Below are positions 4,121 to 15,807 of a stretch of DNA of 64,000 bases, one piece after another. Location: contig NZ_ARWE01000001.1 of NCBI RefSeq assembly GCF_000384395.1, forward strand, positions 1,178,001 to 1,242,000, in the 5' to 3' direction. This DNA is from Geopsychrobacter electrodiphilus DSM 16401 (GTDB taxonomy: Bacteria > Desulfobacterota > Desulfuromonadia > Desulfuromonadales > Geopsychrobacteraceae). The notes under the pieces were generated by a model. The model searched no databases. It was not told the origin of the DNA and worked only from the letters and a program-made list of their open reading frames with translations. A program made the translations under genes and the position numbers. How positions within the stretch are numbered: position 1 is the first letter of the stretch; the number at the start of each line of letters is the position of its first letter.

Positions 4121-6340
4121 ATGATTGGCCTCGGGACCACCATATTTCACCGCGCCAGATCAGCCGCTACCAGCGTTATTTATTTTTTGCGCAACGTCCT
4201 CAATAGCACTGCCACGACTGGAGCAGACTCAACCTTCACCCGTGGTGGCTCCCCGGCAACTGTTCGCGCTTGGGATGCTACGACAGGGCTGAAGCTCGTC
4301 ACCTCTCAGGCTGATGAACCTGTCAGTGAGGGGATGCGGTATGACGCGGGCACTTGGCTCAACGATGACGGAGCAGGCAACGCCCTCCACCCCACCAACG
4401 CAGACGGTGCTTATCTCGACCTGCCTGCACGGATGAACAATGAAGCAATAGGCCCTGACGCGACCAAGAGACAGCTTGGCACTGCTGAACCGCATGACTA
4501 CTACTATGAGTCTGTGGCGATGGGGGAGGAAGTCATCACCCCTCTACTTGTCGCTGGAGTTGGGGCGACAATCTCAGAGACTGATGGAGTTACAACTCAA
4601 ACCAGAAATGGGTCATCAAGTTCAGCTTATGTAACGGGACTTCCTTTTGTTACCTCTGGTGCTAAATATCAGGTTTCAATCGATCTCATATCTATTAATG
4701 CACCAGCTACTGTGTCTGTCAGGGTTGGTGGCGTATTGACTCCGCTGACGGTAGGTATTAACACTTTTGAAGTAACAACCGTTTCCAGTGTCTATCTAAC
4801 CATTGAAATTCTCAATTACACCACAGGAACGGCAGTCTACCGTGATGTCTCACTCAAACTCATCCCCAACACCAGCCTCACTAGCCCCTTGCGCGACTCT
4901 CTGGGCAGGATGTACGAGGAGCGGGTGGTCAATGGGGGCTTTGATGTTGACTATGGGTGGGTGAAAAATGGCAACTGGGCCATCTCAGGTGGTAGTGCTT
5001 CCTGTACGTCTACGGGAGTGAATGAGGATATTTATCAGAGTATAGTTACCACGATAGGAAACACCTACACTGTTTCATGTGATGTGTCTGGTGTCGTTGG
5101 CGCACCACGGTTCTATGTCGATGCCTCTCATGAAGCTCTAGTAAATGGACCATACGAAAGGACTTTTACTGCAACTGCTACCTTTGCAACCATCCGTGTA
5201 CGAATGATTACGGGAGGTTATTCTGTCACCATCGACAACGTATCCGTCACAGAAGTCGATGCCCTCGGCAACCCGACCAACGTGCTGGATGGGGGGAGGC
5301 GGGTAGCGGCAAGTAACTACCTTCTGAACTCTGGCGCACCTATCACACAGACCACAGGAAGCCTTGCAATAGGCTGGTACACTCTCTGGGCTACAGGAAC
5401 AGGTACGGTTACGGTATCAGCAGGGACCGCTACTATAAGCACAACGGCTATGGGTGCTGTGACGGACGGAACGGATGGTAGCTATATCTGGTTTGAAGTC
5501 ACAGGCGCAGGAACAGTAACGGTCACAGTAGCAGGAACACTTGGCACGTTTGATCTGATCGGTGGAACCTACACACCAGCACAACAGCCTCATATTGTAA
5601 CAACTTCAGCCCCCGTAACCGAAGCGGCGAATGTCGCGTCATCCGTCGTGTGGCAATACGGAGGTCGCTACAACAACACCGGGAAGATGCCTTATCTGTT
5701 GCATGAGGGGGCGGCGACGAATCTCTTTCTTAATTCAGATGCACCAGTTACTCAGAACATCACGACTACTGCACAGGCTTACGTCCTCTCAATGACAGGA
5801 ACGGGAAGCATTACAGCGTCCGGTACAGGTTCAGGTGTAGCAACAGAGGGCAGTCCATTGACCTTCACAGCCACAGCAGGGACGTTGACACTTACGAAAA
5901 CTGGTACTGTTACAACCGCTGATTTCTGCGCCGAGACCGTACCAACAAGCCACATCCCCACAACTACAGCCCCGGTCACCCGCGCAGCAACGAGTCAGAC
6001 GTCTCCAATTGTCTTCAGTGCTGATCGTATCCAACTGCGTATCATGCCGTCAGGATTATCGGAAACCTTCCTGAGTGACGGTACAAACGCGCTGACCTAC
6101 ACAGGCACAGCTTTGCAATTCACGGATGGAACAAATATCCTGACGCATACAGTAACGCTTGCTGATGCTGATGTTGTCGGCATTGACTTCGCCCTCGGGA
6201 CGCTCTACCTCAACGGGACTCTGGTTGATACCAATGCCCTTGTCTCTCCAACGTGGGGGGCTTTGACGGATATTGGCAATATAACGGACCTGAAAGAGGA
6301 TGCTACTCTCGACCTTACCAGCATTGCATGGAGTAAATAA
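4121..6340 (+). CDS. Large tail fibre-like protein with repeated beta modules (739 aa)
   Basis: The start has a GGAG ribosome site. The N-terminal ~130 residues are typical of phage proteins that attach to the virion. Two carbohydrate-binding-like beta-sandwich segments follow (around residues 140-250 and 260-385), and then two diverged copies of a module beginning with a leucine-rich LNS-APVTQ motif (near residues 404 and 533), with strings such as TGTGTVTVSAG and TGTGSITASGTGSG. The final ~100 residues form another beta domain (LSDGTNALTYTG). This modular build is characteristic of receptor-binding fibres or decoration proteins. Host-range function is inferred. Confidence 0.65.
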   Translation: MIGLGTTIFHRARSAATSVIYFLRNVLNSTATTGADSTFTRGGSPATVRAWDATTGLKLVTSQADEPVSEGMRYDAGTWLNDDGAGNALHPTNADGAYLDLPARMNNEAIGPDATKRQLGTAEPHDYYYESVAMGEEVITPLLVAGVGATISETDGVTTQTRNGSSSSAYVTGLPFVTSGAKYQVSIDLISINAPATVSVRVGGVLTPLTVGINTFEVTTVSSVYLTIEILNYTTGTAVYRDVSLKLIPNTSLTSPLRDSLGRMYEERVVNGGFDVDYGWVKNGNWAISGGSASCTSTGVNEDIYQSIVTTIGNTYTVSCDVSGVVGAPRFYVDASHEALVNGPYERTFTATATFATIRVRMITGGYSVTIDNVSVTEVDALGNPTNVLDGGRRVAASNYLLNSGAPITQTTGSLAIGWYTLWATGTGTVTVSAGTATISTTAMGAVTDGTDGSYIWFEVTGAGTVTVTVAGTLGTFDLIGGTYTPAQQPHIVTTSAPVTEAANVASSVVWQYGGRYNNTGKMPYLLHEGAATNLFLNSDAPVTQNITTTAQAYVLSMTGTGSITASGTGSGVATEGSPLTFTATAGTLTLTKTGTVTTADFCAETVPTSHIPTTTAPVTRAATSQTSPIVFSADRIQLRIMPSGLSETFLSDGTNALTYTGTALQFTDGTNILTHTVTLADADVVGIDFALGTLYLNGTLVDTNALVSPTWGALTDIGNITDLKEDATLDLTSIAWSK

Positions 6341-6753
6341 TGGTAGATGCAATCTTAAAGCTCAAAGCACCCTTCGATGCTGACCCTCACGCAACGCTGG
6401 TTGCACTTGCCGAACTATCCCTTGCTATGTATGGGGAAGGGGGCAACCCAGATGCAAAGATCACGGAGGACTTCCTCGGCTTTGTCAATACACCCGTCTT
6501 CGGTGGCTACGTGACGATGAGGATTACAGAAGCCTACGCTATGGCTCTGGAGTACATTGAGGCGAACGGAGGGAATCCTATGGCTGAACTGATCAGAGTG
6601 GAATGGCCGACGACACTAGACACGAACGGTGATACGATCCCTGCGGTCTATGCTCCGATCACTTTCCCTGTTGAGCAGTTCGATATTGACGGCGTTTCAC
6701 TTGGGTTTATTCAACAGTCAATTGGCATCATTGGTGGGGGCGTGCATGGTTAA
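6340..6753 (+). CDS. Hypothetical prophage protein (137 aa)
   Basis: The start codon overlaps the fibre gene's stop by one base (TAATG) and is preceded by GGAG. The product is a soluble mixed alpha/beta protein with an acidic bias and no membrane segment. It might be a fibre chaperone or assembly protein because it follows the fibre gene directly, but I recognise no family. Its stop overlaps the next gene by 8 bases. Confidence 0.5.
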   Translation: MVDAILKLKAPFDADPHATLVALAELSLAMYGEGGNPDAKITEDFLGFVNTPVFGGYVTMRITEAYAMALEYIEANGGNPMAELIRVEWPTTLDTNGDTIPAVYAPITFPVEQFDIDGVSLGFIQQSIGIIGGGVHG

Positions 6754-6982
6754 GTTACCGACGATCCCAGCCGACAAACTCGGCCACTTCTTCTACTCCG
6801 CAATCCTCGGCGCAGGTTGTAACCTCTTTTTCGGTCCACTCGTTGCGCTCGTGGTTGTGGTAGCCGCCGCTATAGTAAAAGAGCTTTACGACAAGATCAG
6901 CAGCAAGGGAACGCCGGAAATATTGGACGCGCTGGCGGGGATTGCTGGTGGTCTGGTTGCGATCAGCGGGAGCTGGATTTAA
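6746..6982 (+). CDS. Small membrane protein of the prophage, holin- or lysis-accessory-like (78 aa)
   Basis: The frame is open further upstream, but the ATG at 6746 gives a product starting MVKLPTIPADKLGHFFYS, and a GGTGGGGG ribosome-site-like run precedes it. It has two hydrophobic segments (about residues 15-40 and 58-76) separated by a charged turn containing VKELYDKISSKGTPEILDA. Small phage membrane proteins with the DKLGHF start and KELYD/DA pattern are found near lysis genes. The role is inferred. It is the last recognisable prophage gene before the tRNA. Confidence 0.55.
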   Translation: MVKLPTIPADKLGHFFYSAILGAGCNLFFGPLVALVVVVAAAIVKELYDKISSKGTPEILDALAGIAGGLVAISGSWI

Positions 6983-7025
6983 CACAACAACTAAATGTAG
7001 TCAGATGTGGTCAGATTGAACTAAA

Positions 7026-7056
7026 AAAGGGTTAGCCAAAAAACGGCTAACCCTTT
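7026..7056 (-). terminator. Rho-independent terminator of the tRNA-Ala gene
   Basis: A perfect 12-bp stem (7026-7037 with 7045-7056) with a 7-base loop lies 8 bases past the 3' end of the tRNA. Read on the - strand it is followed by a T run (complement of 7023-7028). Confidence 0.8.
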
Positions 7057-7064
7057 GAAATGTT

Positions 7065-7140
<76 letters not shown>

Positions 7141-7154
7141 GAACAAGTGGAGCG

Positions 7155-7183
7155 TTTATAACAAAGGCCCTTGTGACTGTCAA
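7155..7183 (-). promoter_or_regulatory. Sigma-70 promoter of tRNA-Ala
   Basis: On the - strand, TTGACA (7183-7178), a 17-base spacer, and TATAAA (7160-7155) lie 15 bases before the mature tRNA 5' end. Both boxes are near-consensus. Confidence 0.8.
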
Positions 7184-7295
7184 CAGGAAAGATATGGGTT
7201 GGTTTAATATCGCGTGGCCAGTTCGGAACCCGCATGTTAGAATCAGGCTTGGTTCTATGAATTGAATATCTTCCTGCCGAGTAGGGATTTTTATC

Positions 7296-8705
7296 GTGAG
7301 CTCTCATCCGCAAAATTTACTCCGCAAGTTGCCCGGTGTCGATCGGGTTCTTGTTACCGTTCAGGGCCTGGTGCATGAAGACTGGCCTGCCCACCTTTTA
7401 ACCGCCGAGATCCAGCAACAGATCGCTGACTTGCGTGCGCAGTTATTAAGCGGCGCATTAGCAAAGGTGCCTGCGCTCGAAGTGATCGCCAGAGCGGTGA
7501 TTGTCGGCTTGAATAAATTTCGCCAGCCCTCGTTGCGTCGCGTCATTAACGCCAGCGGGATTCTGCTGCATACCAACCTGGGACGTGCCCCCTTGGCGGT
7601 CGCGGCGCTGGAACAAATTCAGCAGGTCGCCAGTGGTTACAGTAACCTGGAAATGGATCTGGTCAGTGGCCGTCGCGGGTCGCGACACACCCATGTCGAA
7701 GACCTGCTCTGTCGTCTGAGTGGGGCCGAGGCGGCGATGGTGGTTAACAATAATGCCGGGGCGGTGCTTCTGGCGTTGACCGCGCTGGCCAAAGGGAAAG
7801 AGGCCCTGGTTTCGCGCGGTGAGCTGGTCGAGATCGGTGGATCTTTTCGCATCCCCGATGTGATGGAGGCGGGGGGGGTGAAGTTGCATGAAGTCGGCAG
7901 CTCTAACCGGACCCATCTGCGCGACTATGAACAGACGCTCGGACCTGATACGGCGCTGCTGCTCAAGGTTCATACCAGCAACTATAAGGTTGTTGGTTTC
8001 ACCAGCAGCGTTACCGCCGCAGAGTTGGTGGCTCTGGCCGCCGCGACCGGTATCCCGTTGCTGGAAGATCTGGGCAGCGGATTGCTTAAGCCTTTGCCCA
8101 ACAGCAACCTGCCGTATGAGCCGACGATTGCCGAAGCGGTGGCCACCGGGGTTGACCTGCTGACCTGCAGTGGCGACAAGCTGCTGGGCGGACCGCAGGC
8201 GGGGCTGATTTTCGGCCGGCGGGAATGGGTCGACAAACTGCGCAAGCATCCCTTGGCCAGGGCACTGCGCATCGACAAGCTCTCCCTGGCAGCCCTTGAA
8301 GCGACCTTGCGTCTCTATTTGACCGGTGAGGAGAGCAAGATCCCGTTGATGGCCTATTTTGGTGTCGGCGTGCAGGAGCTGGAGGAACGGAGTCGACGCT
8401 TGATGCTGAAACTTGAACCCTTGAGCTTAAGTGTCGAGCTGATTGAGGATGCGGCGAGGGTCGGTGGTGGTGCGATGCCCGAAGCTGAATTAGCCGGTCC
8501 GGCGCTGGCATTGACCTCTGATGTTCTGTCTCTTGATCAGCTGGCCGCGGGGTTACGTGCCTCAACCCCGGCCCTGGTCTGCCGTCTCCACGAGGGGCGG
8601 TTGCTGCTTAATCTGCGCACGGTTGATCCGCTGGAGGAGTCGTTGATTGTTGATATCTTTAAAACCCTGCTGCTGCCTGATTCACCTGTCAAGCGGGGCG
8701 CATGA
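7296..8705 (+). CDS. selA: L-seryl-tRNA(Sec) selenium transferase
   Basis: SelA is a pyridoxal-phosphate enzyme that converts seryl-tRNA(Sec) to selenocysteinyl-tRNA(Sec) using selenophosphate. The 469-residue product has full length for the family. The N-terminal tRNA-binding helical region is followed by INASGILLHTNLGRAPL and the PLP-binding lysine in TCSGDKLLGGPQAG at residue 295, the same number as in the E. coli enzyme. A GTG start is used. The stop overlaps the selB start (ATGA), so translation is coupled. With selB and selD next to it, the whole selenocysteine pathway apart from tRNA(Sec) (selC) is here. Confidence 0.95.
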   Translation: MSSHPQNLLRKLPGVDRVLVTVQGLVHEDWPAHLLTAEIQQQIADLRAQLLSGALAKVPALEVIARAVIVGLNKFRQPSLRRVINASGILLHTNLGRAPLAVAALEQIQQVASGYSNLEMDLVSGRRGSRHTHVEDLLCRLSGAEAAMVVNNNAGAVLLALTALAKGKEALVSRGELVEIGGSFRIPDVMEAGGVKLHEVGSSNRTHLRDYEQTLGPDTALLLKVHTSNYKVVGFTSSVTAAELVALAAATGIPLLEDLGSGLLKPLPNSNLPYEPTIAEAVATGVDLLTCSGDKLLGGPQAGLIFGRREWVDKLRKHPLARALRIDKLSLAALEATLRLYLTGEESKIPLMAYFGVGVQELEERSRRLMLKLEPLSLSVELIEDAARVGGGAMPEAELAGPALALTSDVLSLDQLAAGLRASTPALVCRLHEGRLLLNLRTVDPLEESLIVDIFKTLLLPDSPVKRGA

Positions 8706-10630
8706 AATCTTCCGTTCTGAAACCCGTTATTATCGGGACCGCTGGCCATGTCGACCATGGCAAAACTTCCCTGATTCAGGCCCTGACCGGGGTCGATACC
8801 GATCGCTTGCAAGAGGAAAAAGCGCGCGGTATTTCGATTGAACTTGGCTTTGCCCCGCTGCATCTGCTGGATGGGCGCCTGGCCGGGGTCGTTGATGTGC
8901 CCGGGCACGAGAGGTTTATCCCGCAGATGTTGGCGGGTGCCGCTAGCATCGATCTGGTGCTACTGGTCGTCGATGCTGCCGAGGGGGTGATGCCTCAGAC
9001 TCGGGAGCATCTGCAGATTCTGCAGCTGCTTGAGGTCAAGCGCGGCATTCTGGTGTTGAACAAGATCGATCTGGTCGAAGAGGAATGGCTCGATATTGTC
9101 GAAGAGGAGATTCGCGAGCAGGTGGCCGGGACCTTCCTGGAAAACGCTCCCTGTTGCCGGGTCTCGGCACGGCAGAAACTTGGGCTTGAGTCGCTGTTGC
9201 AGACACTGACGACGCTGGCGATCAAACTGCCACAGCGCGACAGTGGCGGGCCGGTGCGCTTACCGGTTGATCGCTGTTTCAGTATCAGCGGTTTCGGTAC
9301 CGTGGTCACCGGGACCCTGGTTTCAGGCACCGTGCGCAGTGGTGACCGCCTCGAAGTTTTACCGCTCGGAAAGCGGGTGCGGGTGCGGGAGCTTCAGGTT
9401 CACAGTAACAAAGTCGAGTCGGCTGAAGCGGGGCAGCGCTTGGCGATTAACCTGTCCGGTGCTGAGCGTGACTGGTTTAAAAGTGGTTCGGTGGTCGCCA
9501 GCCCGCATCGTTTCTGTGTCACCGAGCGCATTGATGTGCGTCTTCAACTGTTGCCCGAGGCACCAAGACCACTCAAGTTCCGCGATCCTGTGCATCTGCA
9601 CCTCGGCACCGCGCGTGCCGTCGGTCGTGTGGTGCTGCTGGAGGCGGACAGCCTTGAGCCCGGAGCCAGCGCTCTGGCACAGATTGTCCTCGATCGTCCC
9701 CTGGCCGCCTGGCGCGGCGATCCTTTCGTGATCCGCAGTTATTCACCGGTGACGACCATCGGCGGCGGATGTATTCTCGATGCGCTGCCGCAGAAGCACC
9801 GGCGCTTTCGTCCCGAGGTTTTGCAACGCCTGCAGCAACTGGAGAGCGGCAGCAGCGGTGCGGTGCTGCATGCGGTGGAGCAGCTCAAGGCCGCGCGCCT
9901 GCGTGACATGGAGAAGCTGACTGGCCTCTCTCGCGATCTGTTGTTGCAAAATCTTGAGCAGTTAACCGAGAGCGGAGAGCTCTGCCAGCTTGGCGAACAA
10001 TGGTTGACGGCCGGCTTGCAGACCGCCTGGCTCGATCAGCTGGAGGAGCGCTGTGCGGATATCCTGGCAGAGAATCTGCTGGCGCATGGCGTTGCGCGTG
10101 CCACGCTCAAAGAGAGCTTGCCACCGGTGCTGGCCTTGCGCAGTTTCGATCTGCTGCTTGAGCAGCTGTTGGCGGCGGCCAGGCTGAAGAAGGTGAATGA
10201 TCTGCTGGCACCGCCGGATTGGTATCCACAGGTTAGTCCGCAGCAGGCGGAGCAACTGGGAAGGCTGCTAGAGCATTTTGAGCAGCAGGGTTGCCAGGTT
10301 GCCAGTCTCAATCAGGTGATTGAAGATCTTAAGCTGAATCAAACCGAGGTCGAACCCTTAGTCGTCTATCTGGTGGGGGAAGGGGATCTGGTGCGGCTTT
10401 CGAGTGAAAGTTATCTGGCAAAATCGGCCTACGCGCTGGCCCTGAAGCGCCTGGTTGAATATTTCGTCGAGACTGCTGAGTTGAGCCTGGCTCAGTATCG
10501 GGACCTGTTCGGCGGCGGGCGAAAACTGGCCCAGGCACTGCTCGAACATTTCGACGGCTGCAAATACACCCGGCGTCAGGGCGATATCCGTCTCGCCTGG
10601 AATTTACCTGTCCTTGAAAAAGAGGACTGA
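8702..10630 (+). CDS. selB: Selenocysteine-specific elongation factor
   Basis: SelB is a GTPase that carries Sec-tRNA to UGA codons by binding the mRNA SECIS hairpin. The 642-residue product begins with a G1 loop GHVDHGKT (residues 15-22), followed by GISIELGFA (switch I) and DVPGHERF (G3), and NKID (G4). EF-Tu-like beta-barrels occupy the middle. The C-terminal ~300 residues have the winged-helix repeats expected for SECIS binding. It overlaps selA by 4 bases. A client selenoprotein gene (selD) starts 71 bases downstream. Confidence 0.95.
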   Translation: MKSSVLKPVIIGTAGHVDHGKTSLIQALTGVDTDRLQEEKARGISIELGFAPLHLLDGRLAGVVDVPGHERFIPQMLAGAASIDLVLLVVDAAEGVMPQTREHLQILQLLEVKRGILVLNKIDLVEEEWLDIVEEEIREQVAGTFLENAPCCRVSARQKLGLESLLQTLTTLAIKLPQRDSGGPVRLPVDRCFSISGFGTVVTGTLVSGTVRSGDRLEVLPLGKRVRVRELQVHSNKVESAEAGQRLAINLSGAERDWFKSGSVVASPHRFCVTERIDVRLQLLPEAPRPLKFRDPVHLHLGTARAVGRVVLLEADSLEPGASALAQIVLDRPLAAWRGDPFVIRSYSPVTTIGGGCILDALPQKHRRFRPEVLQRLQQLESGSSGAVLHAVEQLKAARLRDMEKLTGLSRDLLLQNLEQLTESGELCQLGEQWLTAGLQTAWLDQLEERCADILAENLLAHGVARATLKESLPPVLALRSFDLLLEQLLAAARLKKVNDLLAPPDWYPQVSPQQAEQLGRLLEHFEQQGCQVASLNQVIEDLKLNQTEVEPLVVYLVGEGDLVRLSSESYLAKSAYALALKRLVEYFVETAELSLAQYRDLFGGGRKLAQALLEHFDGCKYTRRQGDIRLAWNLPVLEKED

Positions 10631-10701
10631 ATTCACTTGGCAGTTGGGGCGCGTTGTGACAGCATGCTTTTCGCTAAAGCCATATTTTTGCAGGAGATAA
10701 G

Positions 10702-11736
10702 ATGACCAACAGGGTACGCCTGACCGGTCTGTCGCGCAGCTCAGGTTGAGCCGCCAAGATAGGCCCCGAGGCCCTGGCCCAGGTACTGGGTCAGATACCA
10801 AAATTTAACGATCCCCGTCTGCTTTCGCAGCATATTCCCTTTGCCGATGCCGGTATCTTCCGCATCGACGAGAAGAGGGCATTGGTGCAGTCGGTCGATT
10901 TCTTCACCCCGGTGGTCGACGATCCCTTTATCTTTGGTCAGATCGCGGCGTCCAACGCGCTCTCCGATCTGTACGCGGTCGGCGCAACCCCGCTGACCGC
11001 GTTGAGCCTGGTCGCATTTCCGCTGAAGCTGGGCGAAGATGTTCTGGCTGAAGTGCTTAAAGGCGGTGCCGAACGGGTGGCTGCGGCCGGCGCCGTGATT
11101 GCCGGTGGGCATTCGGTGGAGGATGACGAGCCGAAATATGGTCTGGCGGTCACCGGTATTGTTGAGATTGAGCAAATGATGCTCGCCACCTCCTGCCGGG
11201 TCGGTGACCGGCTGCTGTTGACCAAACCGCTTGGTTGCGGAATTCTGGCTACGGCGCTTAAGGGTGAGGTCGTCACGGAAGCTGGAATTTCAGAAGCTAT
11301 CGGCGGGATGATCGCCTTGAATGCTTCTGCCTCAGCAGCGTGCATGGCCAGCGGTGTGCGGGCCGCAACCGATGTCACCGGCTTCGGGTTGCTTGGACAC
11401 AGTATGGAAATGGCGCAGGCCAGCCAGGTCCGGTTCGAGATTGAGACCGCGAGCCTGCCGGTTTACCCGCAGGTCGCTGAGATGGCGGCCTTAGGCCTGT
11501 TGCCGGCCGGATTGCACCGCAATCGAAAGTATTATCTGCCCAGGGCTGTTCAAGCTCAGACACTTGAACCCTTTGTCCTTGACCTGCTCTGTGACCCTGA
11601 AACCTCTGGTGGCTTGTTGATTGCGGTGGCGGCGGAACTGCTGCCGCGATTACAGCAGGAGCTGGCGAGTCGACAGGTTTGTTCCTTTGAGATCGGCCGG
11701 GTGATTTCCGGGGAGGCTGGTATTGTTCTGCGCTGA
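10702..11736 (+). CDS. selD: Selenide, water dikinase, itself a selenoprotein (UGA = Sec at codon 16)
   Basis: SelD makes selenophosphate from selenide and ATP. The gene must be read through an in-frame TGA at 10747-10749. Upstream is MTNRVRLTGLSRSSG; downstream is AAKIGPEALAQVLG, so the Sec sits in the position of the catalytic Cys of the usual GCAAK motif, with the partner Lys three residues later. Total length is 344 residues, normal for the family. A ribosome site (AGGAGATAAG) precedes the ATG at 10702. The later ATG at 10882 would delete the active site and is not the true start. Selenocysteine SelD creates a feedback in which the factor needs its own product. Confidence 0.95.
10750..10795 (+). 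promoter_or_regulatory. Candidate bacterial SECIS element of selD
   Basis: Downstream of the UGA, 10774-10782 pairs with 10786-10794 over 9 bp, with one G-U pair, around a very short GTA loop. The stem begins about 24 bases after the UGA, inside the range for bacterial SECIS hairpins, and the loop region has the G/U character seen in such elements. The fold is drawn by eye. Confidence 0.6.
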
Positions 11737-11772
11737 GGGAGTCAGGCTCGCTAAACCCAGGAGGTGCCGCTG

Positions 11773-11937
11773 ATGTTCGGCTTTGGTGTCGGAGAGCTTA
11801 TGCTGGTCGGGGCCCTGGTGGTTTTTGCGCTTATCAGCGGGCGCAATGTCGCGAGCATGTCACGTCAGGCCGGACAACTAACCAGCCTCTGGTTTAGGTT
11901 GAAACAAAAACTCTCATTTCTGCGTTTTTTCAAATAG
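11773..11937 (+). CDS. Very short TatA/TatB-like protein (54 aa)
   Basis: Starts with MFGFGVGELMLVGALVVFALI, which matches the TatA family pattern: short N-terminal region with Phe-Gly and a Glu before a single membrane helix, then an amphipathic helix. AGGAGG precedes the ATG by about 6 bases. The second helix (about residues 25-52) is basic but much shorter than in normal TatA/B. It sits 36 bases after selD. It may be an accessory component of the twin-arginine translocase or a degenerate relative; no tatC is present in the window. Confidence 0.6.
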   Translation: MFGFGVGELMLVGALVVFALISGRNVASMSRQAGQLTSLWFRLKQKLSFLRFFK

Positions 11938-11975
11938 TCTTTTTGCGCCCAACACCCAACATCCAACACCCAAAC

Positions 11976-14129
11976 TTAATACTCAATCTTTGCAAATGCC
12001 GATTTTTCTGAAGCAATCAAGGCATCCTTCAGGGTGATGATCCCCTGTGCCTCCAATAACGGAATCAACTTGATCAGCACCTCAGCGGTTACAATCGAAT
12101 CGCCGAGTGCCGTGTGTCGGCCAACGATGGTGATGTTGAGTCGCTCTGCGATCCCTTCGAGGCCGTGTCCTTTCAGGTTCGGGTGGATAATCGATGAGAG
12201 CAGCAGGGTGTCGAGGACGGGGTTGGAGAACTGGACGCCGGACTTCTGTTCCTTTAGCTGCAAAAAACGCATGTCGAATGCCGCATTATGTGCGACCAGT
12301 ACGGCCCCGTCGGCAAAGTTATGAAACTGTGGGAGGACCTTGTCGATCGTCGGCTGGCCGATGAGCAGTTCGGGATTGATCCCGTGGATGGCAACCGAAG
12401 CCGCCGGGACATGGCGCCTTGGGTCGACCAGTTGATCAATAGTCTCATGGTGCAGAATCTGACTGTTGACGATACGGATGGCTCCGAGCTGGATAATCTC
12501 GTCCCCTTCCGAGGGATTCAGGCCGGTGGTTTCGGTGTCAAAGACTACGAAGGTCAGTTTGCGCAGCGGGGTCTTGGCCATTTCGTCATCACCACGGCGC
12601 TCGAAGAGATCGAACTCGTAGGAGATTGGACGATGCTCGATGCTGGTGTGGATTGAGAGGGTCAGATCTCTGTCTTGTTTGGCATAGTTGATTTTCATGC
12701 CAAGGAAACTTTTGCCGCCGTCCGAAGTCAGATATTGCATGTTGCCGGACATCTTCTCGAGCAGGTCCACGAAACTGAAGGTTTCGCCGCGGCTGTTGCT
12801 TATCAGAGGGGAGTCCCGCCAGTTGTTAAGCAGGCTGTCGTCAATCGACTTATACCACTCGATCCACAGGGAGAAGTAATCATCTTCAGTGGTGAGCTTG
12901 AACTGCAAGTGATCGATAGCGTGATGCATGTTGAGCATGTCAGCCAGGTACGAGAGAGTCTGGACAAAGGAATAGCTGTCAAGCCTTAGCCAGATGTTGG
13001 TCTCGCTGTGAAAAGTGACCTGACAGTGGAGACGGTCGGTAATGTTCTTGGCCAGCACTTCGAGGATACTCTCGCCGGGAATATCCTCGACCTTACTTTG
13101 GGCCCGCAGATGGGTCATATAGTTGTTGCGCGCCAGTTGGATGGTCTGCTCCAGCACCTGAGAGGCCCGGTCGATGGTTTTTCGGTTTTTTTGCAGTTGC
13201 TCCAGCTTCATCTCCGGAGTGTCGAGGATTTGCGTGATCGAATCCCTGATTTCACTCAAGGTCCCCTGCAGGTCATCGGTCAGGGAGCGGATCAGCGAAT
13301 CACGTCGCGTGTCGGCAGCGATTTGTTCTGTCATGTCCTCCAGGGTGAGGACAAACCCGCTCATCTGCTCTTTCCCATCCCTGAGCACTAGAACCGGGGC
13401 CATGTTGACCCGCAAGTAGGCACCACCATGGTATGACATCATGAAACTGCTGATGGGGGTCGACTGGCCGCGTGCAAGAGCATGATTCAGCATTTCAAGC
13501 GCGTGTGCCAGCGGGTCGCGATCAAGCAGACCGAAGACAGAGCGGCCGAGACCGATTAATCCCATGGGTTGGATAGTGGCGGTATTTACTGCCGATTTCT
13601 TGTCAAAGAGGGTCTTGGCTTTGGTGTTGTAGAGAAGAATCTGACCATCGCTGTTACAGACCAGAACGGCGTGGGGCAATTCGGACATGAGCGCTGCGAG
13701 ACGATTCCGCTCCTCCTTGAGCTGAGCCTTGGACTGTGCGATATGTATGTCGATATCCCTCTGCATGCGGGTAAAGGTGTCGGCCGACTCATTGAAAATC
13801 TCGGCGAGATGAACGAGTTCTTTCGCCCCTTTAGGCTTAAGGCGGTAGTCGGTATTGGCTGTCGAAATCAGGCGGATCTCTTCACCCATCTGCAAAATCG
13901 GGATGATGTAGTTGTGGAAAAGCAGGCTGACGAGTCCGCCGATAATCACACAAAGAAAGGCAGCCCCAATAATCGGAAACGGGATTAATTTTCCGATAAG
14001 ATGCTCTAAATAGAGTTGTTCTTCGGTCGCGAGGCTGTGCCAGGACCCGGCAAAACTGGCGATAATAACGCTGAAGGTTATCAACACAATTGCGAAGAGG
14101 AAAAACCAGTATTTGACACGTGGTGACAT
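11976..14129 (-). CDS. Membrane sensor pseudokinase fused to a DnaQ-type 3'-5' exonuclease (717 aa)
   Basis: Two membrane helices (about 7-27 and 50-72) are followed by a HAMP-like region (75-130) and a PAS-like domain (140-265). A histidine-kinase-like segment (275-480) then lacks key residues: where the family has S-H-E-L, this protein has T-D-D-L at 284-287, so there is no phosphoacceptor His, and the ATP-binding N-box Asn is not evident. The C-terminal ~190 residues are a complete DEDDh exonuclease: D531 and E533 (DTETTG), D619 (HNAAFD), H672 and D677. Such fusions link a membrane sensor to a nucleic-acid nuclease. The substrate is unknown. It has an AGAGG ribosome site and is monocistronic in appearance. 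Confidence 0.85.
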   Translation of the reverse strand: MSPRVKYWFFLFAIVLITFSVIIASFAGSWHSLATEEQLYLEHLIGKLIPFPIIGAAFLCVIIGGLVSLLFHNYIIPILQMGEEIRLISTANTDYRLKPKGAKELVHLAEIFNESADTFTRMQRDIDIHIAQSKAQLKEERNRLAALMSELPHAVLVCNSDGQILLYNTKAKTLFDKKSAVNTATIQPMGLIGLGRSVFGLLDRDPLAHALEMLNHALARGQSTPISSFMMSYHGGAYLRVNMAPVLVLRDGKEQMSGFVLTLEDMTEQIAADTRRDSLIRSLTDDLQGTLSEIRDSITQILDTPEMKLEQLQKNRKTIDRASQVLEQTIQLARNNYMTHLRAQSKVEDIPGESILEVLAKNITDRLHCQVTFHSETNIWLRLDSYSFVQTLSYLADMLNMHHAIDHLQFKLTTEDDYFSLWIEWYKSIDDSLLNNWRDSPLISNSRGETFSFVDLLEKMSGNMQYLTSDGGKSFLGMKINYAKQDRDLTLSIHTSIEHRPISYEFDLFERRGDDEMAKTPLRKLTFVVFDTETTGLNPSEGDEIIQLGAIRIVNSQILHHETIDQLVDPRRHVPAASVAIHGINPELLIGQPTIDKVLPQFHNFADGAVLVAHNAAFDMRFLQLKEQKSGVQFSNPVLDTLLLSSIIHPNLKGHGLEGIAERLNITIVGRHTALGDSIVTAEVLIKLIPLLEAQGIITLKDALIASEKSAFAKIEY

Positions 14130-14181
14130 GAAACCTCTGCAGCAGAACCGATGCTAAGCGCTGTGTGCGCTGGCGTCGGGG

Positions 14182-14838
14182 TTAATTTTTTGGGAAAGGG
14201 GCGTTACGTCGATCTTCCCAGTAGTTGGTAATGCGTGCAACCAGGCTGTGACCCCGTCCGTAGTTGACGGCTTCAAACAGGGCGCGAAAGGTCTCGCGTT
14301 CGAGACGCAATTTAAAGTAGATCTGGGCCATGTGGAAATTGGCCCAACCCTTCTCCTCATTATTTTTCGCCTGGGAAAGCGCCCGCTGACTTTCGTTGAG
14401 GGCCGGCTTGAATTGTCCTTGTTTCAAGAGAATGACCGATTTCAAGTCAAAGAGCCTGCTGTCGGCGGTCGGGAGGGTTTGTGCAAGGTTTTCAGCGGTC
14501 TTGAGGTTGTCAAAATTTACGGCTTCAAGTAGAGCCAGATGATAACTCAAGGTCTGTTTCTGAGAGTTGTCAGACGGATAGGTAAAGGCTTTTTTGTAGA
14601 CGCGGCGGGCTTCTTTATACTTTCCCGTTGATTCTAACAGATCGCCATATAACAAAGCATCGTCAACATTCGGGTTGCCTGTTATGGCCTGCTGCATCTC
14701 TTTGAGCGCCCCGGGGATATCTTGAACCGAAATCATCGCCGTGGCCCTCAGGCGATGTTGAGCCGGGGTGATGGTGGTGCTGTTGGTTGCCGGGGCGCAG
14801 GCTGGTAAAAGCAGAATCAGGATGCAGAACAGACGCAT
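14182..14838 (-). CDS. TPR lipoprotein (218 aa)
   Basis: A GGAG site precedes the start. The N-terminal MRLFCILILLLPAC gives a signal peptide ending in a lipobox (LPAC), so the mature protein is predicted to be lipid-anchored. The remainder consists of helical repeats with TPR character (ALLYGDLLESTGKYKEARRVYKKA and later copies). It is upstream of the exonuclease-sensor gene on the same strand with about 50 bases between. A role in envelope complex assembly is inferred; substrate unknown. Confidence 0.65.
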   Translation of the reverse strand: MRLFCILILLLPACAPATNSTTITPAQHRLRATAMISVQDIPGALKEMQQAITGNPNVDDALLYGDLLESTGKYKEARRVYKKAFTYPSDNSQKQTLSYHLALLEAVNFDNLKTAENLAQTLPTADSRLFDLKSVILLKQGQFKPALNESQRALSQAKNNEEKGWANFHMAQIYFKLRLERETFRALFEAVNYGRGHSLVARITNYWEDRRNAPFPKN

Positions 14839-14883
14839 TCGATATTCTCCGACGGATAGCTGAAAATCAGGAGATTCTACCGA

Positions 14884-14917
14884 AACGGCGGCCGCATCAG
14901 GAGCGTGGCCGCCGTTT
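14884..14917 (-). terminator. Hairpin after purC
   Basis: An 11-bp GC-rich stem (14883-14893 with 14907-14917) lies just past the purC stop at 14926. Both strands have short T/A tails, so termination is likely on - and possible on +. Confidence 0.6.
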
Positions 14918-14925
14918 TTATAAGA

Positions 14926-15807
14926 TCAGCAGGTAAGGCGTTTGAGCGCCTCAAGATATTTTTCACTGGTCCTCAGGATAATCTCGGGCGGTAGCGGAGG
15001 AGCTGGTGCCGTTTTCCCCCAGTCAAGGGTTTCGAGATAGTCGCGCAGGAACTGTTTGTCAAAACTCGGCTGCGCTTGACCTGCTTTATATTGGGCGCTC
15101 GGCCAGAACCGGGAAGAGTCAGGGGTCATGGCCTCGTCAATCCAGATGAGTTGGTCACCGATGGTGCCGAATTCAAATTTTGTGTCGGCGATGATGATCC
15201 CCTTTGTCGCGGCAAATTCGCGCGCCCGCTGGTAAATCTGGATACTCACCTCGCTGACTTTTTGCGCCAGTTCCGGCCCGCATAGGTTGGCGGCTTCGGC
15301 AAGGGAGATGTTCTCGTCATGGGTGCCGAGTTCGGCCTTGGTTGATGGCGTGAAAATCGGCTCAGAAAGCTTGCTGCTTTCGAGCATGCCTTCCGGCAGC
15401 TTGATGCCACAAACAGACCCTTTTTGCTGATACTCTTTCCAGCCGCTACCAGAGAGGTAGCCCCGGACAATACATTCGATCGGCAGTGGCTGCGCTTTTT
15501 TGGTCAGCATGCTGCGACCTTCCAATTGGTCGCGGTACTGATGAGTGATAGCGGGAAAGTCATCAACCTCGGTCGAGATCAGGTGGTTTGGAATCAGATC
15601 TCCCATCATTTCAAACCAGAATTTGGAGACCTGGGTCAAAACAAAGCCCTTCTGCGGAATCCCTTCGTTCATAATGACATCAAAGGCCGAGATTCGATCG
15701 CTGGTGACGATCAGCAGGTGCTCACCGAGGTCATAGAGATCACGAACTTTACCCCGGTTGAGAAGTTTCAGTTCCGGACAGTTTGTCTGGGTTACGATCT
15801 TGGTCAT
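14926..15807 (-). CDS. purC: SAICAR synthetase
   Basis: PurC joins aspartate to CAIR in de novo purine synthesis. The start chosen ([14 protein letters not shown] site 8 bases upstream) gives 293 residues, the usual length for the long-form enzyme. A larger frame to 16005 overlaps the upstream gene and has no family match. Motifs [26 protein letters not shown] near the start and [11 protein letters not shown] are typical. It lies 4 bases after the PpiD-like gene, implying co-transcription. Confidence 0.95.

Follow-up and report, generated by a model that had tools for sequence, protein, structure and literature searches.

A predicted membrane-bound pseudokinase-exonuclease fusion of Geopsychrobacter electrodiphilus, with relatives in acetate-gene operons

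The stretch of DNA analysed here (the window) comprises 64,000 nucleotides of Geopsychrobacter electrodiphilus DSM 16401, contig NZ_ARWE01000001.1, positions 1,178,001 to 1,242,000. Its minus strand carries an open reading frame (ORF) of 717 amino acids (11976-14129, ATG start) in which a membrane part and a histidine-kinase-like core, the latter devoid of its phosphoacceptor histidine, are joined to a DEDDh exonuclease domain. Taken as a whole, the best explanation is that the pseudokinase is used for docking and relay and that the exonuclease is, in relatives, the effector of an acetate module, a reading given an even chance of being correct. Among the matches listed from the titles and abstract openings of open-licence PubMed Central no description of the fusion was found; an account in other wording would escape such a search.

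The fusion protein and its exonuclease

Because whole-length matches (residues 1 or 2 to 717, 52-100% identity) occur in 33 of the 44 genomes of the window's GTDB family, the fusion ORF is, on this comparative ground, a real gene. Hydropathy places two hydrophobic stretches at residues ~4-32 and ~43-79, predicted to be transmembrane helices. Fewer than 20 residues separate them, and therefore no periplasmic sensor domain is present in the protein by this measure. An earlier note, made from the sequence alone, had suggested that an envelope signal could be the input; with no extracytoplasmic sensor domain this suggestion finds no footing. The helices are followed by a weak HAMP match (Pfam E 0.12 at residues 77-117, below cut-off) and a PAS_9 match (E 0.0058, also below cut-off); the PAS family PF00989 is above cut-off in one relative (L097).

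The exonuclease is the clearest part of the protein. RNase_T (PF00929) is matched at residues 528-685 with E 1e-34 and 120.9 bits against a Pfam cut-off of 24, and the DEDDh residues D531, E533, D619, H672 and D677 are invariant in 37/37 aligned proteins. Family score and the D-E-D-H-D set together place the domain among the PF00929 DEDDh exonucleases, and it looks intact. The best match among PDB sequences is 2p1j (PolC-type, E 1.9e-30), and the 12 matches found there comprise PolC, DnaQ/epsilon, DinG, exonuclease X, further exonucleases and one unrelated row.

The fusion thus shares all five DEDDh residues with DnaQ and PolC exonuclease domains but differs from them in its membrane-HAMP-PAS-pseudokinase part and in having no polymerase context. 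An ordinary repair or proofreading exonuclease, fused by chance to a decayed sensor, would fit PolC and epsilon exonuclease domains being the best PDB sequence relatives. It is nevertheless very improbable: the window protein scores 105.4 of the 222.7 bits demanded by the DNA polymerase III epsilon equivalog (TIGR01406), far below cut-off, the architecture is conserved across classes, and acetate genes lie alongside in many relatives.

A kinase core without its histidine

In Pfam no row for HisKA or HATPase_c was returned for the window protein (listing to E 1, with HMMER filters dropping most matches above ~0.1), and a HATPase_c row in a Neorhizobium relative is weak and sub-threshold (E 0.0016, 19.3 of 26.4 bits). 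A profile of the fusion family matches a profile built from 19 kinases that retain the H-box, taken from neighbourhoods of the loci studied, with E 6.6e-12 (a single comparison) and probability 97.5. This comparison sets SLTDDLQ against SVTHELR and places Asp285 at the phosphoacceptor histidine, as the earlier note had read it. Column 285 holds D in 20, E in 6, S in 1 and A in 1 of the 28 long relatives aligned. Another 24 members, drawn from Alpha- and Betaproteobacteria and from further classes of the window's phylum, were aligned together with 8 real kinases; histidine is found in 0/24 of the former and in 8/8 of the latter. Overall, 0 of the 52 long members checked have histidine at this position; the Paracoccus yeei member has one four residues beyond the column. 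The CA boxes also look degenerate in the profile alignment with kinases.

An AlphaFold2 model of residues 265-500, built from four sequences with a mean predicted local distance difference test score (pLDDT) of 69.3, consists of two long helices and an alpha/beta sandwich. Its best structural matches in the PDB are histidine kinases, with DivL (4q20) among the Foldseek matches, and the CA part alone superposes on PDB histidine kinases with Z 10.5 and a root-mean-square deviation (rmsd) of 2.9 over 117 aligned residues. Many two-domain superpositions give an rmsd above 13, and therefore the relative placing of the DHp and CA domains differs. A full-length model, also from four sequences, was of unusable quality (mean pLDDT 36.9). 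A fold model had been proposed as a way of exposing a normal kinase; the modelled DHp helical hairpin and CA sandwich do indicate a kinase fold, but no histidine stands at the H-box.

As judged from these alignments, the fusion protein is not an active sensor histidine kinase, and its kinase is predicted to be dead. Because non-histidine residues occupy the phosphoacceptor column throughout long members from several classes, the pseudokinase state appears to be ancestral to the family rather than a recent decay in the window genome. With the kinase apparently dead and the exonuclease intact-looking, the natural output would be a nuclease, in agreement with the earlier note's reading of a membrane protein that ends in a nuclease and not in a kinase.

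Distribution and long and short forms

The pseudokinase-exonuclease fusion, which the earlier note had treated as an oddity, is on sequence evidence a widespread conserved family. The search for the domain pair across genomes that the note had called for returned long-form relatives both within the phylum, in the window's class and beyond it, and among Alpha- and Betaproteobacteria. Matches to the region upstream of the exonuclease (E<=1e-20) occur in 91 of the 277 genomes of the window's class; within the GTDB family of the window 43 of 44 genomes have some match, certain ones over the exonuclease alone. Among 395 sampled genomes of the phylum, 52 match a broader profile at E<=1e-45, the matches in the lower half of that list being mostly restricted to the exonuclease. 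On plasmids, 18 of the 743 records matching by tblastn contain a single region that spans 80% or more of the query, and these belong to Cupriavidus, Paracoccus, Neorhizobium, Ciceribacter and Marivivens. The locus counts that follow cover loci whose neighbourhoods were retrieved.

A short form at nine loci of the window's class (L064-L072) consists of TM-HAMP-PAS, a linker, the YEFDLF motif and the exonuclease, with no pseudokinase. Three candidates with the exonuclease motif near the N-terminus (L166-L168) and one from Bradyrhizobium with the DnaQ domain on an unrelated N-terminus (L137) were dropped as family members.

A receiver accompanies the pseudokinase outside the window's lineage

The set of outside loci comprises 31 (L109-L119, L130-L136 and L153-L165), of which 30 were counted; L114, like L103, was left out of the receiver/architecture table, the gene being cut off by the end of the contig. 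L158 was counted as outside by the author's choice, its gene being of a distant type though its genome is of the window's class. In 21/30 outside loci the gene immediately upstream, in the same orientation and often with a 4-base overlap, encodes a single-domain response regulator, and all 21 carry the long form (20 by the counting rule, and L153 from a separate neighbourhood reading). The nine outside loci with no such regulator comprise two long (L112, L130) and seven short members (L117, L131, L132, L133, L135, L164, L165). Fisher's exact test gives p 2.3e-5 for 20/20 against 2/9 long, and p 0.002 (12/12 against 1/5) after collapse of clades by the author's judgement, the only correction for kinship made. 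The acceptor Asp and the conserved Lys are kept in 21/21 aligned receivers (L114 included, L156 not).

For the distant loci the long form was assigned by spacing, sequence reading and a joint kinase alignment: the pseudokinase regions of L157-L163 are unmatched by the hidden Markov model of nearer relatives and those of L118, L119 and L153-L155 are weakly matched, while motif positions are spaced by 342-345 in L118, L153, L154 and L162.

Consistent with such a pairing, a study of the Caulobacter protein DivL describes a kinase core that binds DivK~P and a DHp-CA region that is frequently missing in alphaproteobacteria with no DivK (PMC4211667). DivL likewise has a histidine-kinase core with no phosphoacceptor histidine, and receiver partner and DHp-CA tend to be absent together. 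Because the co-occurrence of receiver and pseudokinase resembles that of DivK and DivL, it suggests by analogy that the receiver may gate the exonuclease by docking on the pseudokinase. The two systems differ in that DivL controls the kinase CckA whereas the fusion pseudokinase is joined to an exonuclease, and in that the fusion's link to a receiver is known from gene context and its window lineage has no adjacent receiver.

Acetate-gene operons in relatives

An acetate-module neighbourhood (acs, SSF symporter, DUF294) is found in relatives. In Paracoccus yeei the order is acs, DUF485, cation acetate symporter (ActP), DUF294 nucleotidyltransferase, response regulator and fusion; in Marivivens it is acs, DUF4212, SSF symporter, DUF294, small ORF, response regulator and fusion. 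Three other Paracoccus have DUF294, small ORF, histidine kinase, response regulator and fusion, and Cupriavidus has kinase, receiver, fusion, DUF294 and an Acs-like gene. Shinella, Rhizobium oryzihabitans, Ruegeria and Limimaricola share the order DUF4212, SSF, DUF294, small ORF and short fusion with no receiver, the Limimaricola locus including acs as well. In other classes of the phylum the arrangements are receiver-fusion-kinase (L118, L119, L153-L155, L157, L159-L161, L163), ACS-receiver-fusion (L114), receiver-fusion-DUF294 (L115) and SSF-short fusion-DUF294-ACS (L164, L165). Within the window's class the fusion is divergent from DUF294-x-SSF at two loci (L096, L097), and in the window's family two loci (L084, L089) carry three genes side by side, in the order fusion, stand-alone DnaQ, Acs. 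The other bait proteins had no match at 27/40 class loci within the retrieved stretch.

Because these relatives carry acetate or monocarboxylate modules with DUF294, and often a single-domain response regulator, their operons suggest that the signal is a nutrient cue inside the cell, with the regulator as its carrier. Carboxylate transport relayed by the receiver is a more likely signal in relatives than an envelope stimulus.

Kinases beside the fusion in several relatives resemble the monocarboxylate-sensing kinases of the SLC5-STAC systems CrbS/CrbR and RpuS/RpuR, and the name CrbS-like is applied to them tentatively, from bait matches. The receiver of the fusion operon is single-domain and adjoins a nuclease, unlike the LuxR-family regulators of such systems described for S. 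fredii (PMC9100948). The acetate link of the fusion draws on this gene context and on P. putida. There, the genes of the CBS-domain protein PP_0354 and the RNase_T protein PP_0353 share an operon, ErdR binds the PP_0354 promoter, and normal growth on pyruvate requires PP_0353; in P. aeruginosa PAO1 and P. fluorescens NCTC10783 the homologous pair is found next to actP (PMC9927547). This pair of the CrbS/R (MxtR/ErdR) regulon resembles the fusion systems in that the gene of an RNase_T exonuclease shares its operon with that of a CBS-domain protein. It differs in that PP_0353 is described as an RNase_T hit with no secretion signal, while the window protein has a membrane part and a pseudokinase; the authors of the P. 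putida study term the precise role of PP_0353 unclear (PMC9927547). In the P. fluorescens CrbS/R regulon, Pflu5625 has cAMP-binding, CBS and nucleotidyltransferase domains, and the effect of its mutation is given as negligible (PMC5715377).

DUF294 and the fused exonuclease are neighbours at many loci; their joint occurrence found no match in the open-licence PubMed Central literature. One might write and the other erase a common nucleotidyl mark, either on a protein, e.g. the symporter or Acs, or on RNA 3' ends. This is unlikely when taken by itself, and compatible with the docking-and-relay explanation. The single operon of PP_0354 and PP_0353 is in keeping with it. RNase T is a 3' exonuclease of the RNase_T/DEDDh kind, and against an eraser role is the report that it failed to strip AMP from the substrates of SelO, both in vitro and in cells (PMC12663964).

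The exonuclease could instead act at the membrane as a hydrolase of short RNA or of a dinucleotide product of second-messenger turnover. The cNMP-binding domains on the DUF294 partners of Marivivens and Neorhizobium speak for such a role. DEDDh chemistry, which oligoribonuclease uses, would be compatible with it. No entry named oligoribonuclease is among the 12 PDB sequences matched, and this role is judged quite unlikely.

Proposed mechanism

In the proposed scheme the fusion would be a membrane-anchored 3'-5' exonuclease of the DEDDh type, with the histidine-less kinase core as docking and relay module, and in relatives it would act as effector of an acetate/monocarboxylate module. There, the SSF-linked (CrbS-like) kinase would phosphorylate the single-domain receiver, which in its phosphorylated state would bind the pseudokinase, in the way that DivK~P binds DivL, and so switch the exonuclease. 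Exonuclease and DUF294 nucleotidyltransferase would act on a shared substrate and so tune acetate uptake and activation. The scheme draws on the architecture, the missing kinase histidine, the conserved exonuclease residues, the higher sequence identity of the exonuclease than of the pseudokinase region, the operons of relatives and the receiver-pseudokinase co-occurrence outside the lineage. In the window lineage the membrane/PAS/pseudokinase part and the exonuclease are retained, and the input would be PAS-borne, membrane-borne or supplied by a recruited receiver. The fullest form of this scheme is a two-component pathway ending in a nuclease, running from transporter-kinase through single-domain receiver and dead-kinase socket to a membrane-tethered exonuclease that erases the nucleotidyltransferase mark, as post-transcriptional control of acetate use; it is put forward tentatively, as a possibility with less than an even chance.

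Several observations weigh against the docking-and-relay explanation. At the window the neighbours of the fusion are purC and sel genes and not acetate genes, and DUF294 is present in 273/277 class genomes, so that its presence alone is uninformative. The SSF match of the Paracoccus bait kinase is sub-threshold in Pfam (19.6 of 22.8 bits), and the 460-amino-acid kinases of L159-L161 and L163 are seemingly too short for an SSF part. Outside the lineage, L112 and L130 retain the pseudokinase with no response regulator. On 20 mM acetate, P. putida is reported to grow unaffected by deletion of PP_0353 or PP_0354 (PMC9927547). Within the window's class a single-domain response regulator is found directly upstream at 0/30 long loci (L073-L102) and likewise at none of the nine short ones, and therefore the correlation of receiver and pseudokinase fails inside the lineage; some class loci have two-domain regulators nearby, e.g. 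at 283 bases in L079. A profile of nine operon receivers (that of genome G212 not included) was run on 14 genomes, and among the best rows the window genome's top receiver scores 130.8 bits, against 120.9-137.6 in five fusion-free genomes and 171.6 for the operonic receiver of G212. No dedicated receiver was thus detected in the window genome by this profile among its best rows.

Because there is no upstream regulator and no dedicated receiver was detected, the window protein may be a derived member run by PAS/membrane input alone, or one served by a recruited receiver. The former possibility extends to a distinct account, in which the exonuclease is gated by membrane and PAS with no receiver, the window-lineage pseudokinase is a dimerising spacer relaying HAMP/PAS movement, and the acetate link is historical. 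The receiver results in the window genome and class favour it, as do the nine class members with no pseudokinase and the low conservation of the pseudokinase region, which is the lowest in the protein (mean pairwise identity among 28 long forms 35%, against 68% for the exonuclease). It is held to be somewhat unlikely, since the region remains recognisably conserved (I298 in 27/28, S385 and W437 in 28/28 long forms), keeps its kinase fold in the model and, outside the lineage, tracks the response regulator.

Genomic surroundings

At the window the fusion lies between purC and selD, with a TPR ORF alongside, 52 bases away on the same strand (Table 1). Throughout the window's family the fusion is beside purC and sel genes are present at most loci examined; the TPR gene is found in the genus, its cluster being confined to L090-L092. 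A selenium or purine role by neighbourhood was set aside because purC and sel are shared as neighbours only in loci of the window's family.

Table 1. Coordinates in the window of the fusion gene, its parts and the adjacent TPR gene
Feature	Coordinates	Strand	Evidence
Whole gene, TM-HAMP-PAS-pseudokinase-DEDDh exonuclease (predicted)	11976..14129	-	ORF list, Pfam, matches in family genomes
Residues 1-79, two transmembrane helices, loop <20 residues	13893..14129	-	Hydropathy
Residues 80-139, HAMP-like region and linker	13713..13892	-	Weak sub-cut-off Pfam match, alignment of relatives
Residues 140-269, PAS-like domain	13323..13712	-	Sub-cut-off Pfam match, relative L097
Residues 270-498, degenerate histidine-kinase core (DHp+CA), pseudokinase	12636..13322	-	Alignments, profile, model
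Asp285 codon at phosphoacceptor His position	13275..13277	-	Alignments, profile comparison
Residues 500-509, RPISYEFDLF, conserved linker motif of long and short forms	12603..12632	-	Alignment
Residues 525-690, DnaQ/RNase_T DEDDh exonuclease	12060..12557	-	Pfam, PDB sequence matches, alignment
TPR-repeat ORF, upstream of the fusion	14182..14838	-	Pfam; lipoprotein-like by eye

Between selD and the fusion there is also an ORF of 54 amino acids (11773-11937, plus strand) that starts MFGFGVGELMLVGALVVFALISGRN, a start that may resemble a TatA-type N-terminus. Elsewhere in the window genome, at ~2.41 Mb, one cluster holds two pairs of SSF followed by DUF294 (L148, G000:C1:2402000-2421000, 6593-15599). 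Neither a receiver nor a fusion is among the ORFs listed there, and the cluster is likely the organism's own carboxylate-uptake locus. About 21 kb past the window, near 1.265 Mb, lies a gene for a 1076-amino-acid protein matching the kinase bait (L149, G000:C1:1257000-1275000, 5045-9372, minus strand), followed by two small ORFs that by eye are STAS protein-like and anti-sigma kinase-like.

In relatives, an uncharacterised ORF of ~160-175 amino acids stands between DUF294 and the fusion (or receiver) in the alphaproteobacterial operons of L113 (8976-9464), L131 (8278-8808), L132 (7524-8048), L133 (7742-8260) and L135 (7749-8270); in the two examined (L113, L112) nothing is above Pfam cut-off. 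A genome of the window's class has a receiver-fusion-kinase operon of distant-class type (L158, G212:C18:262000-278000), which suggests horizontal transfer.

Implications

Most two-component systems act through a transcription factor, a cyclase or a motility switch. If the docking-and-relay explanation is correct, a nuclease reached via a pseudokinase would be an added output class for these systems, and a mechanistic frame would be available for the P. putida pair PP_0354/PP_0353. Given the co-occurrence of receiver and pseudokinase, the idea lends itself to a direct test in a tractable bacterium, e.g. Paracoccus denitrificans.

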